This document shows positions 1,079 through 25,620 of a stretch of DNA of 64,000 nt, piece after piece (the first letter of the stretch is position 1; every line of letters starts with the position of its first letter). Both the position numbers and the translations under genes were made by a program. The notes beneath the pieces are model-generated. The model saw only the letters and a program-made list of their open reading frames with translations, ran no database searches and had not been told where the DNA came from. The stretch is from Pseudomonas sp. BGr12 (lineage in GTDB: Bacteria; Pseudomonadota; Gammaproteobacteria; Pseudomonadales; Pseudomonadaceae): contig NZ_JALRNF010000024.1 of NCBI RefSeq assembly GCF_030272895.1, forward strand, positions 28,057 to 92,056, given 5' to 3'.

Positions 1079-4000
1079 ATGACTGACCACGCCATCGATC
1101 AACTGCTGAAAAACCTCGACCACGCCATGATTGCCGAGCGCCATCGCCTGCGCCGGCAACTGCACGAACTGCGCAAGCGCCCGGACGAGGCCAAGCTTGC
1201 GCAGTGGGTCGACAAGGTCCAGGCATCCTGCGCCCAGGTCACTGCGCGCAAGGCCAGCGTGCCGAGCATCCGTTACGACGACAGCCTGCCGATTGCGGCC
1301 AAGCGTGACGAGATCAAGAAGGTGCTGGCCGAGCATCAGGTGCTGATCATCGCCGGTGAAACCGGCTCGGGCAAAACCACCCAGTTGCCGAAGATCTGCC
1401 TGGAGCTGGGGCGTGGCCAGCACGGCCTGATCGCCCATACCCAGCCCCGGCGGATCGCGGCGCGTAGCGTCGCCACCCGGGTCGCCGAAGAGCTGGGTAC
1501 ACCATTGGGCGCGCTGGTCGGCTACCAGGTGCGCTTCGAAGACCAGAGCGACGCCAACACCCTGGTCAAGCTGATGACCGACGGCATCCTGCTGGCCGAA
1601 ACCCAGCACGACCGCTTTCTCGAACGCTACGACACCATCATCGTCGACGAAGCCCACGAACGCAGCCTGAACATCGACTTCCTGCTCGGCTACCTCAAGA
1701 CCCTGCTGCCTCGTCGCCCGGACCTGAAGGTGATCATCACCTCGGCGACCATCGACCTTGAGCGCTTCTCCAAGCACTTCGACGATGCGCCGATCATCGA
1801 AGTGTCCGGCCGCACCTACCCGGTGGAAACCTGGTACCGGCCGTTGACCAGCGAGCAGGACGAGGAGGGCAACCGGGTCGAAGACGACCTGACCGTGGAC
1901 CAGGCGATTCTCGCCACCCTCGACGAAATCGCCGCCCATGAGCGCGGCCAGGGCAAGGGCCCGGGTGATGTGCTGGTGTTCCTGCCCGGCGAGCGCGAGA
2001 TTCGCGACGCCGCCGAGATGCTGCGCAAGGCCCAGTTGCGCCACACCGAGATCCTGCCGCTGTACGCGCGCCTGTCGCCGGCCGAGCAGCAGAAGATTTT
2101 CCAGTCCCATCCGGGGCGGCGCGTGGTGCTGGCGACCAACGTCGCCGAAACCTCGCTGACGGTGCCGGGCATTCGTTATGTGATCGACAGCGGCACCGCG
2201 CGGATCAGCCGCTACAGCTACCGCGCCAAGGTCCAGCGCCTGCCCATCGAGGCGGTGTCCCAGGCCAGTGCCAACCAGCGTAAAGGCCGTTGCGGGCGGG
2301 TCGAACCGGGCATCTGCGTGCGCCTGTACAGCGAAGAGGATTTCAACGCACGGCCGGCGTTCACCGATCCGGAGATCCTGCGTACCAACCTCGCGGCGGT
2401 GATCCTGCAGATGCTCCATCTGCGCCTGGGTGAAATCGACGCCTTTCCCTTTATCGAGCCGCCGGATGGCAAAGCCATCAGCGACGGCTTCAACCTGTTG
2501 CAGGAGCTCTCGGCGGTCAACCGCGAGAACCAGCTGACACCACTGGGCCGGCAACTGGCGCGCCTGCCGGTCGACCCACGCCTGGGGCGCATGCTGCTCG
2601 AAGGTGCCAAGCAGGGCAGCCTCAATGAAGTGTTGATCGTCGCCAGCGCCCTGTCGGTGCAGGACCCGCGCGAGCGTCCGCCGGAGCGCCAGCAGGCCGC
2701 CGACCAGGCGCATGCGCAGTGGAAGGATGCCGATTCCGACTTCGCCGCCCTGGTCAACCTGTGGCGCGGCTTCGAAGAACAACGCCTGGCCCTGACCGCC
2801 AGCCCGCTGCGCAACTGGTGCCGGAAGAATTTCCTCAACTACCTGCGCCTGCGCGAATGGCGCGATGCGCACCGCCAGTTGAGCCTGATCTGTCGCGATC
2901 TGCAGTTGAGCATCAACAAGGACCCGGCCGATTTCCCGAAACTGCACAAGGCGATCCTCTCCGGCCTGCTCAGCCAGATCGGCCAGAAGACCGAAGACGG
3001 CGACTACCTCGGTGCCCGTCAGCGACGCTTCTGGGTGCATCCGTCCTCGGGCCTGGGCAAGAAGCGGCCACAGTGGATCATGACCGCCGAACTGGTCGAA
3101 ACCACCAAGCTCTACGCGCGCATGGTGGCCAAGATCGAGCCGGACTGGATCGAGCCGTTGGCCACCCACCTGGTCAAGAAGAACCACTTCGAGCCGCACT
3201 GGGAGAAGAAGCGCGGCCAGGTGGTGGCCTATGAACAGGTCACCCTTTATGGCCTGATCGTGGTCGGCCGTCGCCCGGTGCATTTCGGGCCGATCGACCC
3301 GGTGATGTCCCGCGAGCTGTTTATCCGCGAGGCGCTGGTGGGCGGTGAAATCCAGTCCCGGGCCAAGTGCCTGAGCGCCAATCGCAACCTGCTCGAACAA
3401 CTCGACGAACTGGAAGCCAAGGCCCGGCGTCGCGACATCCTCGCCGACGACGAAACCCTTTACGGCTTCTACGAGGCGCGCTTGCCGGCCGAGATCCACC
3501 AGACCGCGACCTTCGACAGTTGGTACCGGGTCAACAGCCAGAAAGATCCGCAGCTGCTGATCATGCGCGAGGAAGACGTGCTGGCCCGCGAGGCCAGCGA
3601 GGTCACGGCGGCGCAGTACCCCGACACCTTGCGCCTGGGCGACTTGAGCCTGGCCCTGAGTTATCACTTCGAACCCAATCATCCGCGCGACGGTGTCACG
3701 GTGCGGGTACCGGCGCCATTGTTGCCGAGCCTGCCGGGCGAACGCCTGGAGTGGCTGGTGCCGGGCCTGCTCGAAGCCAAGTGCATCGCCCTGGTGCGCA
3801 ACCTGCCCAAGGCCCTGCGCAAGAACTTCGTGCCGGTACCGGACTTCGTCAAGGCCGCCCTGCAACGCATGACCTTTGCCGAAGGCTCCTTGCCCCAGGC
3901 CCTGGGCCGCGAACTGCTGCGCATGACCGGGGCACGAGTCAGCGATGAGGCCTGGGCCGAAGCCGCAGGACAAGTCGATAACCACCTGAAGATGAACCTG

Positions 4001-6440: not shown

Positions 6441-7058
6441 ATGGCGATGACAGGTGAAGAACAAGGCCGCTTGCTCGAGCGGCTGCTCAAGGGCGAGCAA
6501 CAGGCTTTCAAGGAACTGGTCGATACCTATCAAGGAGCGATGCGCGCCGTGGCCTATGCCATTGTCGGCAGCCGCAACGCCGATGAGGTGGTGCAGGATG
6601 CCTGGTTGGCGGTGGTGCGCAACCTGGGCGGATTCCAGCAGCGTTCCAGCCTCAAGACCTGGCTGCTGACCATTACCGCCAACGCGGCCAAGACCCGTTA
6701 CAAACACAACCGCCGGGAAGTGCTGCTCGACGACCTGCCCGCGCCCCATGGCAGCATCGGCGACGAGCGTTTTGCCAGCGACGGCCACTGGTTGCTGGCG
6801 CCTTCAGCCTGGCACGAAGACAGCCCTGAAGCCTTGCTCAGCCAGGACGAGCTGCGTAAGTGCCTGGAGCACACCTTGCTCAGCCTGTCGGAGCTGCAAA
6901 GCAGCGTCCTGGTGTTGCGCGAACGCCAGGGGCTGGAACTGGAACAGATCTGTAATCTTCTCGATATCTCGCTCTCCAATGTCCGCGTGCTGCTGCACCG
7001 GGCACGGCTGAAGGTCTTCGCGACCCTGGAACACTTCGAGGAAACCGGCCAATGCTGA
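6441..7058 (+). CDS. RNA polymerase sigma factor, ECF subfamily (PA3285-like)
   Basis: A 205-residue sigma-70-family protein with regions 2 and 4 only, as in ECF factors. Region 2 covers roughly residues 10-85 (YQGAMRAVAYAIVGSRNADEVVQDAW, then SSLKTWLLTITANAAKTRYK). Region 4 is near 135-195 (LSLSELQSSVLVLRERQGLELEQICNLLDIS with a helix-turn-helix, then NVRVLLHRARLKV). Starts at 6441 and 6447 are both possible. The last codons overlap the next gene by 7 bp, so the two are translationally coupled. That gene encodes a small zinc-finger protein, the usual anti-sigma partner. The target regulon cannot be deduced from this window. Confidence 0.92.
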   Translation: MAMTGEEQGRLLERLLKGEQQAFKELVDTYQGAMRAVAYAIVGSRNADEVVQDAWLAVVRNLGGFQQRSSLKTWLLTITANAAKTRYKHNRREVLLDDLPAPHGSIGDERFASDGHWLLAPSAWHEDSPEALLSQDELRKCLEHTLLSLSELQSSVLVLRERQGLELEQICNLLDISLSNVRVLLHRARLKVFATLEHFEETGQC

Positions 7059-7291
7059 CCTGCAAGGAACTAGTCGCCCGCTCCAGCGACTTCGTCGATG
7101 AACAACTGAACCTGGGCGAGCGCCTGATGGTGCGTCAGCACCTGCTGTTCTGCCGAAACTGCCGGCGCTTCATCAAGCAGCTGCAACTGGCCCAGGCCAC
7201 CGTGCGGGCCATGCCGCCAGCACCGGAGCCCGGTAGCGCGGCGCTGGCCGAGCGTCTGTCGCGCGAGCAGCGGGGCGCGAACAAGCCCTGA
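7052..7291 (+). CDS. small zinc-finger (ZAS-type) anti-sigma factor candidate (PA3284-like)
   Basis: A 79-residue soluble protein. It begins MLTCKELVARSSDFVDEQL, typical of the N-terminal helix of zinc-binding anti-sigma domains, and has the core HLLFCRNCRRF with the HxxxCxxC zinc ligands. It has no membrane segment, so any signal sensed would be cytoplasmic, unlike membrane-bound ZAS proteins. The ATG overlaps the stop of the sigma gene. Anti-sigma function is inferred from the motif and this coupling. The C-terminal third is Pro/Ala-rich and probably disordered. Confidence 0.8.
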   Translation: MLTCKELVARSSDFVDEQLNLGERLMVRQHLLFCRNCRRFIKQLQLAQATVRAMPPAPEPGSAALAERLSREQRGANKP

Positions 7292-21911: not shown

Positions 21912-21949
21912 TAATGATGAGAAACTTGTTCTGTTATGGAGAAGATCTC

Positions 21950-22843
21950 GTGGAGCTCAGCCAGCTACGGATTTTTCAGGCGGTCGCCGAGGAAGGTTCG
22001 GTAACCCGGGCCGCCGAACGCCTGCACCGGGTGCCGTCGAACCTGTCCACCCGGCTGCGCCAGCTGGAAGAACAACTGGGTGTCGAGTTGTTTCGCCGTG
22101 AGCGCCAGCGCCTGCAGTTGTCGCCGGCGGGCAAGGTCTTGCTCGATTACGCCGCACGCCTGCAGGCGCTGCACGATGAAGCCGTGGCGGCGGTGCAGGG
22201 CGGGCAGCCGGCGGGGGATTTCGCCCTGGGCACCATGTACAGCACGGCGGCGATTCATCTGCCGGCCCTGCTGGCGCGTTATCACAAAGCCTACCCGGCG
22301 GTGAACCTGCAGGTGCAGGCGGCGCCCAGTGGCGAGTTGTTCGAAGGCCTGCTCAACGGTCGCCTGGATGCCGCCCTGGTGGACGGACCATTGGCCCTGG
22401 CCGGGCTCGACGGCGTGCCGCTATGCGATGAAACCCTGGTGCTGATCACCGAGCCGGACCATCTGCCGGTGCGCAGTGCCCGGGATGTGGCCGGGCGGGC
22501 GGTGTTCACCTTTCGCCAGGGCTGTTCCTACCGCATGCGCCTGGAAGCCTGGTATGCCCACGATCATGCGGCCATGGGCCGGGTCATGGAAATCGAGTCC
22601 TATCCGAGCATGCTGGCCTGTGTGATTGCGGGCGCGGGTGTGGCGCTGATGGCCGAGTCGATGCTCGCCAGCCTGCCGGGTCGCGAGCGGGTGGCGGCGC
22701 ATCGGCTGCAGGCGCCGTTCGACCAGGCCACCACCTGGCTGATGTGGCGCAAGGGCATGCGTGGCGCGAACTTGAGTGCCTGGATCGATCTGCAACAAGG
22801 GGAAACAGTTATGCAGGGGGTGGAAGTGGCGGTGGGGGCTTGA
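21950..22843 (+). CDS. LysR-type transcriptional regulator
   Basis: 297 residues from the GTG at 21950 (VELSQLRIFQAVAEEG), which follows a GGAGA ribosome binding site by 8 nt and aligns with usual LysR starts; an ATG at 21914 would add 12 atypical residues. The winged helix is SVTRAAERLHRVPSNLSTRLRQLEEQLG. The effector domain resembles regulators such as PtxR/CysB-type proteins but gives no ligand. It is divergent from the MFS gene, its probable target. The stop codon (22841-22843) lies inside an Anr box serving the next gene. Confidence 0.9.
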   Translation: MELSQLRIFQAVAEEGSVTRAAERLHRVPSNLSTRLRQLEEQLGVELFRRERQRLQLSPAGKVLLDYAARLQALHDEAVAAVQGGQPAGDFALGTMYSTAAIHLPALLARYHKAYPAVNLQVQAAPSGELFEGLLNGRLDAALVDGPLALAGLDGVPLCDETLVLITEPDHLPVRSARDVAGRAVFTFRQGCSYRMRLEAWYAHDHAAMGRVMEIESYPSMLACVIAGAGVALMAESMLASLPGRERVAAHRLQAPFDQATTWLMWRKGMRGANLSAWIDLQQGETVMQGVEVAVGA

Positions 22844-22853
22844 TCGAAATCAA
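22840..22853. promoter_or_regulatory. Anr/FNR box controlling the sicX-like locus
   Basis: TTGAT CGAA ATCAA is a perfect match to the Anr/FNR consensus TTGAT-N4-ATCAA. Its centre (22846.5) would place a class II start site near 22888, about 80 nt before the small ORF. The box contains the stop codon of the upstream LysR gene. Confidence 0.85.
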
Positions 22854-22967
22854 ACTTGTCCCCAACTCATGTAGCTAGACCATGCGCGATGTCAGACATA
22901 GGACTATGATCTGTATGAAGCATCGCAGGATTGAATCACCGTGCAGGCTGACCCGTAAGGGGGAGTT

Positions 22968-23093
22968 ATGAGAAATAATCTGTTCAACTGGCTTCATGAC
23001 CTGGCTGCGGCCCTGGGCTTGATTCCACCGCCATTGCAGCCGGTGCCGATTCCCACCGATGAGGAGCAGCGCAAGCGCCAGCCTCGGCGCTAG
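22968..23093 (+). CDS. small 41-residue protein, PA1414-like
   Basis: ATG at 22968, stop TAG at 23091-23093. A very strong ribosome binding site (GGGGGAG) lies 5-7 nt upstream, so translation is likely. The protein starts MRNNLFNWLHDLAAALGLIP, an amphipathic helix, and ends in a Pro-rich and then Arg-rich tail (EEQRKRQPRR). It is too short for usual ORF cut-offs. It sits inside the transcript proposed as the SicX-like RNA, which may therefore be dual-function. No enzymatic motif is present and the function is unknown. Confidence 0.72.
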   Translation: MRNNLFNWLHDLAAALGLIPPPLQPVPIPTDEEQRKRQPRR

Positions 23094-23105
23094 CGCTTGG
23101 CTCGG

Positions 23106-23133
23106 GCCGCCGCATCAGGGCTGATGCGACGGC
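23106..23133 (+). terminator. stable hairpin at the end of the sicX-like locus
   Basis: Arms GCCGCCGCATCA and TGATGCGACGGC pair with a single mismatch around a GGGC-type loop. There is no T run directly after (TATCGTTTG follows), so it may be a processing or Rho-associated 3' end. The symporter gene converges on it from the other side. Confidence 0.5.
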
Positions 23134-23148
23134 TATCGTTTGCCTGTA

Positions 23149-24528
23149 TCAGGCCAGGTTTACCGCACCCGCCGGACGACGGGACATCAGGCTCACCAGC
23201 ACAAAGCTGACCAGACCGATCGCCAGGCTGTAGTAGATCGGCGTGTTGGCATCCATACCATCCTTGAGCATGAACACCAGGGCGGTGACGAAGCCCAGGG
23301 ACATACTGGTGATTGCCGCCGCAGTGGTGGCGCGCTTCCAGTAGATCGCACCGATCAGCGGCACCAGCATGCCACCTACCAGCAGGTTGTAGGCCAGGGT
23401 CAGGGCGCTGATCACGTCTTCGACCACCAGGGCGATACCCAGTACGGCAATACCGGTCAGCAGAGTGAACAGGCGGTTGACCGCCAGGCTCGACTGCTTG
23501 CCGCCGCGCAGCTTGGGCAGCAGGTCTTCGGTGAGCACGGTCGAAGCTGCCAGCAGGCCGGCACTGGCCGTGGACATCATCGCCGCCAGCGCAGCAGCGA
23601 TCACCAGGCCGCGGATGCCGTCAGGCAGGGCGGATTTGACGATGGCGGCAAAGGCGTTGTTGGCATTGTCCAGATCCGGCAGCAGCACGTGGGCCGCCAT
23701 ACCGATCACCGCACACACCAGACCGTAGATCACGCAGTAGATACCGGCGGTGGTACCGGCACGTTTTGCGACTTTTTCGTCACGGGCAGTGAACACGCGC
23801 TGCCAGATGTCCTGACCGATCAGGATGCCGAAGAAGTAGATCAGGAAGTAGGTGATGATGGTGTCCCAACCGATGGTGGTCAGGTTGAAGCTGGCTTCCG
23901 GCAGCTTGGCCACCAGTTGATCCCAGCCACCGACGCGGTACAGGCAGATTGGCAGCAGGATGAACATCAGGCCGACGGTCTTGATCACAAACTGGACGAT
24001 GTCGGTCAGGGTCAGCGACCACATGCCGCCGATGGTCGAGTACACCACCACCACGCCACCACCGAGCAAGATCGACGCCCAGAACGGCAGATCGAACAGC
24101 ACCTGCAGCACAGTACCGATGGCCAGGGTCGAGGTCACGCCGATCATCAGGGCGTAGGCCAGCATGATCACCGCACTGGCCTGGCGGGCCATCGGGTTAT
24201 AGCGACGCTCCAGGACCTGGGTCACGGTGAAGATTTTCAGGCGCAGCAGCGGTTTGGCGAGGAACAGGTTCAGGGCGATGATGCCCAGGCCCAGTGCCGC
24301 GCACAGCCAGAAGCCGGAAATACCGTGCACATAGCCCAGCTTCACGGTGCCGACGGTGGACGCGCCGCCCAGGACCGTGGCGGCCATGGTGCCCATGTAC
24401 AGGCTGGGGCCCAGGTTACGCCCGGCGACCAGATAGTCTTCGTGGGTTTTTGCCCGGCGCATGCCGTACCAGCCCAATGCGAGCATGCCGGCGGCATAGA
24501 TCAATACAACAAGTATGTCCAAGGCCAT
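23149..24528 (-). CDS. sodium:solute symporter (PA1418-like)
   Basis: 459 residues with about thirteen hydrophobic segments, matching the SSSF family (PutP/PanF relatives). It opens MALDILVVLIYAAGMLALGWYGMRRAKTHEDYLVAGR, the typical first two helices with the YLVAGRNLG signature. It has the core helix GGASTVGTVKLGY and a conserved TASAGLLAASTVLTEDL. It lies downstream of, and on the same strand as, the guanidinobutyrase gene (141 bp gap). It is therefore a reasonable candidate for uptake of guanidinobutyrate or a related compound; that substrate is inference from position. Confidence 0.9.
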   Translation of the reverse strand: MALDILVVLIYAAGMLALGWYGMRRAKTHEDYLVAGRNLGPSLYMGTMAATVLGGASTVGTVKLGYVHGISGFWLCAALGLGIIALNLFLAKPLLRLKIFTVTQVLERRYNPMARQASAVIMLAYALMIGVTSTLAIGTVLQVLFDLPFWASILLGGGVVVVYSTIGGMWSLTLTDIVQFVIKTVGLMFILLPICLYRVGGWDQLVAKLPEASFNLTTIGWDTIITYFLIYFFGILIGQDIWQRVFTARDEKVAKRAGTTAGIYCVIYGLVCAVIGMAAHVLLPDLDNANNAFAAIVKSALPDGIRGLVIAAALAAMMSTASAGLLAASTVLTEDLLPKLRGGKQSSLAVNRLFTLLTGIAVLGIALVVEDVISALTLAYNLLVGGMLVPLIGAIYWKRATTAAAITSMSLGFVTALVFMLKDGMDANTPIYYSLAIGLVSFVLVSLMSRRPAGAVNLA

Positions 24529-24669: not shown

Positions 24670-25620
24670 TTAGCGATGTGCTACGCCGGGCAGAACACAG
24701 AGCATTTCGTACAGCAGGTTGGCGCCGAGCAACGAGGTGTTGCCGGTGGTGTCGTAAGGCGGCGAGACTTCGACCAGGTCGCAGCCGATCAGGTCCAGGC
24801 CCTGGCAGCCACGGATGATTTCCATCGCCTGGATGGTGGTCAGACCACCGATTTCCGGGGTGCCGGTGCCTGGGGCCCAGGCCGGGTCGATGCCGTCGAT
24901 GTCGAAGCTCAGGTAAACCGGGCCGCCGCCGACTTTCTCGCGCACTTCGGCCATCAGCGGTGCCAGGGACTTGTGCCAGCACTCTTCGGCCTGGACCACA
25001 CGGAAGCCCTGCTTGCGGCTCCAGTTGAAGTCTTCGGCGGTATAGCCCTGGGCGCGCAGGCCGATCTGCACCACGCGGTCGCAATCCAGCAGGCCTTCTT
25101 CCACGGCGCGGCGGAAGGTGGTGCCGTGGGCGATTTTCTCGCCGAACATGTGATCGTTGACGTCGGCGTGGGCATCGATGTGCACCAGGCCTACCTTGCC
25201 GTGCTTCTTGTGGATCGCCCGCAGGATCGGCAGGGTGATGGTGTGGTCGCCACCCATGGTCAGGGGGATGATGTTGTGTTCGAGGATCTCGTCGTAGGCT
25301 TCTTCGATGATGCGCACGGCTTCAAGCAGGTTGAAGGTGTTGATCGCCACGTCGCCGATATCGGCGACCGACAGCGAATCGAAGGGCGCGGCGCCGGTGG
25401 CCATGTTGTAGGGACGGATCATCACCGACTCGGCACGGATCTGCCGTGGGCCGAAGCGGGTGCCCGAGCGCAGCGAGGTACCGATATCCAGGGGGATACC
25501 GATGAAAGCCGCATCCAGGCCTTCGGCGCTCGGCAGATGAGGAAGGCGGAGCATGGTGGCGATACCGCCGAAACGCGGCATTTCATTGCCGCCCAGTGGT
25601 TGGTGAAGAATCTTGTCCAC
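24670..25620 (-). CDS. gbuA: guanidinobutyrase (ureohydrolase family)
   Basis: 316 residues starting at GTG 25620. The dinuclear manganese site of ureohydrolases is complete: GGDHT near residue 124, the DAHAD motif near 149, and SFDIDGIDPAWAPGTGTPE near 238. The enzyme hydrolyses a guanidino group to urea and an amine. Agmatinase (SpeB) is the close alternative. The divergent LysR gene and the downstream symporter reproduce the gbuA-gbuR (PA1421-PA1422) neighbourhood of P. aeruginosa, which favours 4-guanidinobutyrate, an arginine-catabolism intermediate giving 4-aminobutyrate and urea. Confidence 0.9.
   Translation of the reverse strand: MDKILHQPLGGNEMPRFGGIATMLRLPHLPSAEGLDAAFIGIPLDIGTSLRSGTRFGPRQIRAESVMIRPYNMATGAAPFDSLSVADIGDVAINTFNLLEAVRIIEEAYDEILEHNIIPLTMGGDHTITLPILRAIHKKHGKVGLVHIDAHADVNDHMFGEKIAHGTTFRRAVEEGLLDCDRVVQIGLRAQGYTAEDFNWSRKQGFRVVQAEECWHKSLAPLMAEVREKVGGGPVYLSFDIDGIDPAWAPGTGTPEIGGLTTIQAMEIIRGCQGLDLIGCDLVEVSPPYDTTGNTSLLGANLLYEMLCVLPGVAHR

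Follow-up and report, generated by a model that had tools for sequence, protein, structure and literature searches.

The closest described system to the locus analysed here is PA1414/sicX of Pseudomonas aeruginosa. According to the sections of the SicX report drawn on here (PMC10247376), PA1414 is an Anr-activated gene of 234 bp whose transcripts are confined to its 5' end, a terminator lying inside the gene. In the same sections a truncated 5' allele is sufficient, mutation of the start codon or of the frame has no effect, and synonymous changes in the transcribed part do matter. SicX is presented there as the P. aeruginosa gene with the highest expression in chronic human infections, with ubiUVT, of which UbiU is part, as its target; the SicX-ubiU pairing considered below is taken from these sections. 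The RNA is also described there as P. aeruginosa-specific, no homologues being found in other species by BLASTN requiring more than 90% identity and coverage (PMC10247376). In the part used of a 2010 paper, PA1414 is listed as P. aeruginosa-only (PMC2864246). A literature search that left subscription journals and preprints mostly uncovered returned no description of a PA1414-family protein or of SicX outside P. aeruginosa.

The window, that is the whole 64-kb stretch of Pseudomonas sp. BGr12 DNA that was analysed, carries a LysR-family regulator gene (21914..22843, + strand) orthologous, at 73% identity, to the gene beside sicX in P. aeruginosa PA7. This gene also matches the NCBIfam equivalog NF047711 (PtrR, putrescine utilization regulator) at 463.6 bits, over a cut-off of 400. 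Downstream lie a convergent sodium:solute symporter gene (23149..24528, - strand; PF00474), a gbuA-like gene for an agmatinase-family enzyme (24670-25620, - strand) and a second LysR gene, gbuR-like. A preliminary description, made from the letters alone, had named these three neighbours, all of which were found, and they are presumably the counterparts of PA1418-PA1422. It had also equated the locus with PA1414, an assignment borne out by the syntenic LysR gene, an open reading frame (ORF) of family NF041729 and an Anr box at a conserved position. On this comparative evidence, the window locus is the orthologue of the PA1414/sicX locus. We put at about three in four the probability that it is a PA1414 locus without SicX, in which low oxygen would lead Anr to switch on an mRNA for the small protein.

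The individual elements reported earlier, namely an Anr box, a strong ribosome-binding site, a 41-codon ORF and a 3' hairpin, are all present in the sequence. The box, TTGATCGAAATCAA (22840..22853), is a palindrome without assigned strand that overlaps the stop codon of the LysR gene (22841-22843). It is the single copy of a perfect TTGAT-N4-ATCAA across the window, and a perfect box occurred in none of 100 dinucleotide shuffles; Anr-type sites with at most one mismatch number two against 0.56 expected. The second, an Anr-like site with one mismatch, TCGATACCTATCAA, lies at 6520-6533 (+ strand). Two possible -10 hexamers follow the box. TAGACC (22876..22881, + strand) is a poor match placed at class II spacing, with a similar spacing seen in other clades, and would set the RNA start at about 22888. 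The alternative, TATGAT (22905..22910, + strand), would move the start to about 22917 and centre the box near -71; 28 of the 30 window-clade loci retain CTATGAT. The RNA would begin near one or the other position, the choice being uncertain, and a consensus scan of 22700-23300 returned neither a sigma-70 promoter nor a terminator. An AAGGGGG ribosome-binding site (22957..22963, + strand), kept in most window-clade loci, precedes the ATG at 22968 of the ORF for the 41-residue protein (22968..23093, + strand). Beyond it, between the convergent genes, stands a hairpin without a T-run (23105..23134, + strand), with a 12-bp stem interrupted by one internal mismatch (-19.7 kcal/mol); all three relatives folded retain the stem.

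The Anr box was surveyed across clades, the window clade being represented by the best 30 of 74 matching genomes and the fluorescens-type loci by the best family-profile hits, not by a random draw. Loci L002-L025 were excluded from the counts because they occupy the same places as later loci, and L053, L092 and L100 were tallied separately. A box with at most two mismatches was present at -127 to -130 in 28/30 window-clade loci against 23/180 control segments, a control rate exceeding that of the other clades; a stricter form of the box was present in 25/30. The box with at most two mismatches was likewise found in 22 of the 24 PA7-group loci (controls 1/144), in 7 of 13 in g11 (1/78) and in all three of g38 (0/18). 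The counts were 5/20 for fluorescens-type loci (controls 5/117), 0/5 for g36 (0/30) and 0/10 for the remaining loci (0/60). The window's genome encodes an Anr-like protein of the Crp/Fnr type (L204), with a cluster of cysteines near its N-terminus; we take it to be Anr from its features. With respect to the Anr regulon of Pseudomonas, as given in the part consulted of a published survey (PMC6588701), the box type is alike and the distance to the start codon falls within the 300 bp of that survey. Nevertheless, that part does not name the PA1414-family gene as a core target, and the survey kept only intergenic boxes, whereas the window's box overlaps the LysR stop codon.

The small ORF is under very strong selection in the fluorescens-type loci (L050-L070), most of which have an eroded box. 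Since these relatives have lost the box in all but 5 of 20 cases, Anr control is not needed everywhere. Their related -10 region is kept, which raises the alternative that the window ORF, while translated and conserved, owes its expression to the CTATGAT promoter, whatever the oxygen level, and not to the box. Such is probably the case in the fluorescens-type relatives themselves. For the window clade it is unlikely, as the box is held at a fixed distance in nearly all loci and is perfect in the window, and Anr activation of the small-protein mRNA is retained as the preferred reading.

The second question is whether the locus makes an RNA of the SicX kind. The name SicX core is coined in this analysis for an invariant stretch placed by position and conservation: GCGGAGAGTGGGACGCCG is identical in the 24 aligned PA7-group leaders and is followed by a hairpin, with an RNAalifold z of -7.7 for these leaders. 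Its first 17 nt occur as one exact copy per genome, at the sicX locus, in 24/24 PA7-group genomes; the search covered 398 genomes and found this exact 17-mer in none of the remaining 374, the window's own (G000) included. G000 carries the genus label g1 and a same-species label with G056; g1 includes a genome with a PA7-matching locus, and the window locus matches g35 genomes, at no more than 90% DNA identity. The g1 label of G000 looks wrong, the SicX core being absent from it and present in the other 24 g1 genomes.

In the window clade, no conserved leader fold was found, RNAalifold giving z values of 0.03 and -1.34, against the -7.7 of the PA7 group, over 28 of the 30 loci from either likely RNA start to the ATG. 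Nor is the ATG preceded by a hairpin of the kind present in the P. aeruginosa group. A hairpin is possible in the window's own leader; it was discounted, as relatives do not preserve its outer stem. Rfam, at gathering thresholds, gave no match at the PA1414-like locus; elsewhere in the window, at 7062-7261 (+ strand), it matched the Pseudomonas sRNA P17 (RF01670; 50.6 bits, gathering score 45). In g11, the leader (L071-L084, L090) forms two conserved hairpins without the SicX core (z -6.4, 9/13 loci folded) and is perhaps a different leader RNA.

The preliminary description had called the locus a sicX-like small RNA gene, and this designation was not supported. In favour of a dual-function locus, with an ORF inside an Anr-controlled base-pairing RNA that resembles SicX, perhaps with a diverged sequence and new targets, stand the orthologous locus, the upstream Anr box and the syntenic LysR gene that the window has in common with sicX. 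The leader sequence is also well conserved in close relatives, but the conserved block contains the likely -10 region and can therefore be promoter DNA. On the other side, the core, a conserved leader fold and the hairpin before the ATG are all lacking. In parallel, no UbiU match was found in the window's genome at E <= 1e-60, its only U32 proteins being of 439 aa and 667 aa. We consider such an RNA quite unlikely. Conservation with PA1414 outside the Anr box, on which the preliminary description had staked its claim, exists for the protein (NF041729) and fails for the RNA, the protein part alone being common to the two loci.

The NCBIfam profile NF041729, 'PA1414 family protein', matches the ORF over 41 residues with 71.2 bits (cut-off 28), and the same name is borne by 13 of 29 database relatives. 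A Pfam search of the ORF gave no match; PF28105 is the Pfam identifier found as a precomputed label for the PA1414 family protein. The NF041729 profile matches 299 of 398 Pseudomonadaceae genomes (295 above cut-off) in 11 of 19 genera, and outside the Pseudomonadaceae a single match, below cut-off, was obtained among 194 genomes of the order. Sequence family, length and position after a LysR gene are alike in the window ORF and the PA1414 family protein, and no feature of the ORF speaks against membership.

Selection was estimated from pairs with dS between 0.05 and 1.5, taken from 29 of the 30 window-clade loci and 19 fluorescens-type loci among others. The median dN/dS was 0.087 in the window clade (28 distinct sequences), 0.024 in the fluorescens-type clade (19 loci), 0.233 in the PA7 group (24 sequences) and 0.231 in g11 (12 distinct of 13). 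The comparison of synonymous with non-synonymous change that had been proposed as a check thus came out in favour of coding selection. The synonymous share of codon differences was 0.69 in the window clade (shuffle mean 0.24, shuffle maximum 0.40) and 0.53-0.75 over the four clades, against means of 0.20-0.24 and a largest value of 0.40 for column-shuffled alignments; in the two other frames it was 0.02-0.13. On these alignments, the ORF is a protein gene under amino-acid-level purifying selection in four clades. The AlphaFold model, a weak one (mean pLDDT 73.6, pTM 0.38), predicts a helix at 2-15 and a short helix at 31-36, and the hydrophobic moment of residues 3-13 is 0.56; as a guess, this may be a peripheral membrane protein. 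A remnant without function, or an ORF serving only as a regulatory leader, might be suspected from the ORF's very small size and from a convergent neighbour starting 55 bp past its stop. Either is highly improbable in view of this selection in four clades and of one protein family spanning 11 of 19 genera while the leaders vary.

The P. aeruginosa DNA among the loci compared is that of PA7 only (L109), where the 234-bp frame runs from a GTG at 2902 to 3135. The first part of this frame holds the SicX core and an 11-bp hairpin, and the conserved protein starts after them, at an internal ATG (3001); by this order SicX is the 5' leader of the small-protein gene. The protein database holds P. aeruginosa forms of both 77 aa and 44 aa. 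A stop codon separates the core from the ATG in 12 of the 24 PA7-group genomes, so that the long form cannot be read there. From the wording 'annotated start codon', the start-codon mutant of the SicX paper would have had a change in the first codon of the long frame, not in the ATG of the conserved protein. Because transcripts in P. aeruginosa are restricted to the 5' end, in the sections used of that paper (PMC10247376), the protein may be made little there.

Pairing with a ubiU leader like that of PA7 does not account for the conservation of the core in the whole group. Among the 24 core-bearing genomes, five (G002, G007, G016, G020, G023) gave no UbiU match at E <= 1e-60. Only one of the remaining 19, all with UbiU, presents an Anr box, a 114-nt gap and CCCACT before ubiU (L174): G012, the genome with a sicX locus matching PA7's. 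CCCACT is the 6-nt complement of a chosen part of the core only. In the other 18, a same-strand ORF ends 18-79 nt before ubiU, and neither box nor CCCACT is present. RNAduplex comparison of SicX with the ubiU upstream region gave, relative to shuffles, a z of -1.18 for the PA7-type G012, 12% of shuffles being as good, and -1.43 to 1.45 for the other 13 genomes, values that do not set pairing apart from chance in either direction. As the core is invariant yet 5/24 genomes are without UbiU and 18/19 without a PA7-like ubiU leader, pairing with this leader cannot explain the group-wide conservation, and the SicX core probably has, judging from these genome comparisons, a role other than pairing with the ubiU leader. 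Across the wider family, at least 145 of the 299 genomes bearing the protein family are without a UbiU match (299 against 154, apparently from the same genome draw).

The preferred reading of the window can then be put as follows. At low oxygen, Anr would bind 22840-22853 and activate a short mRNA, of about 220-250 nt if its end is the 3' hairpin. Its product would be a 41-residue protein in which an amphipathic helix at the N-terminus is followed by a proline-rich linker and an arginine-rich tail; it may act in low-oxygen physiology as an adaptor or as a peripheral membrane protein. Anr activation at this locus, translation and the role of the protein are what we infer from the sequence. For the P. 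aeruginosa group, a promoter of this type would give an RNA with SicX as its 5' leader, ending at the hairpin before the small ORF, and read-through past that hairpin would yield the mRNA. The family, box and core counts indicate that the protein is the most widely kept element and the Anr box the next, with the SicX core in one group alone. The order protein first, SicX later is suggested by presence and absence, read without a tree. A broader account, to which we give even odds, is that the sicX locus is fundamentally a small-protein gene of the whole family, Anr-controlled in several clades. SicX would have arisen in the leader of the P. aeruginosa group, making a dual locus (the RNA, and a 44-aa protein by read-through) in which the group-wide role of SicX is not ubiUVT activation, and the window would be the RNA-less form with a putative low-oxygen microprotein.

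PA1414 is P. aeruginosa-only in print, and by the present comparisons neither the protein nor the SicX core appears so restricted. The results indicate that an entire species group has the core RNA of SicX in common, and that the ubiU leader on which SicX acts is peculiar, among the genomes compared, to the line of PA7. They also indicate that the PA1414/sicX locus encodes, in addition to the RNA, a widely conserved protein that was obscured by the long annotated frame. Genomes with the protein but without SicX, like that of the window, would allow the role of the protein to be tested apart from SicX.
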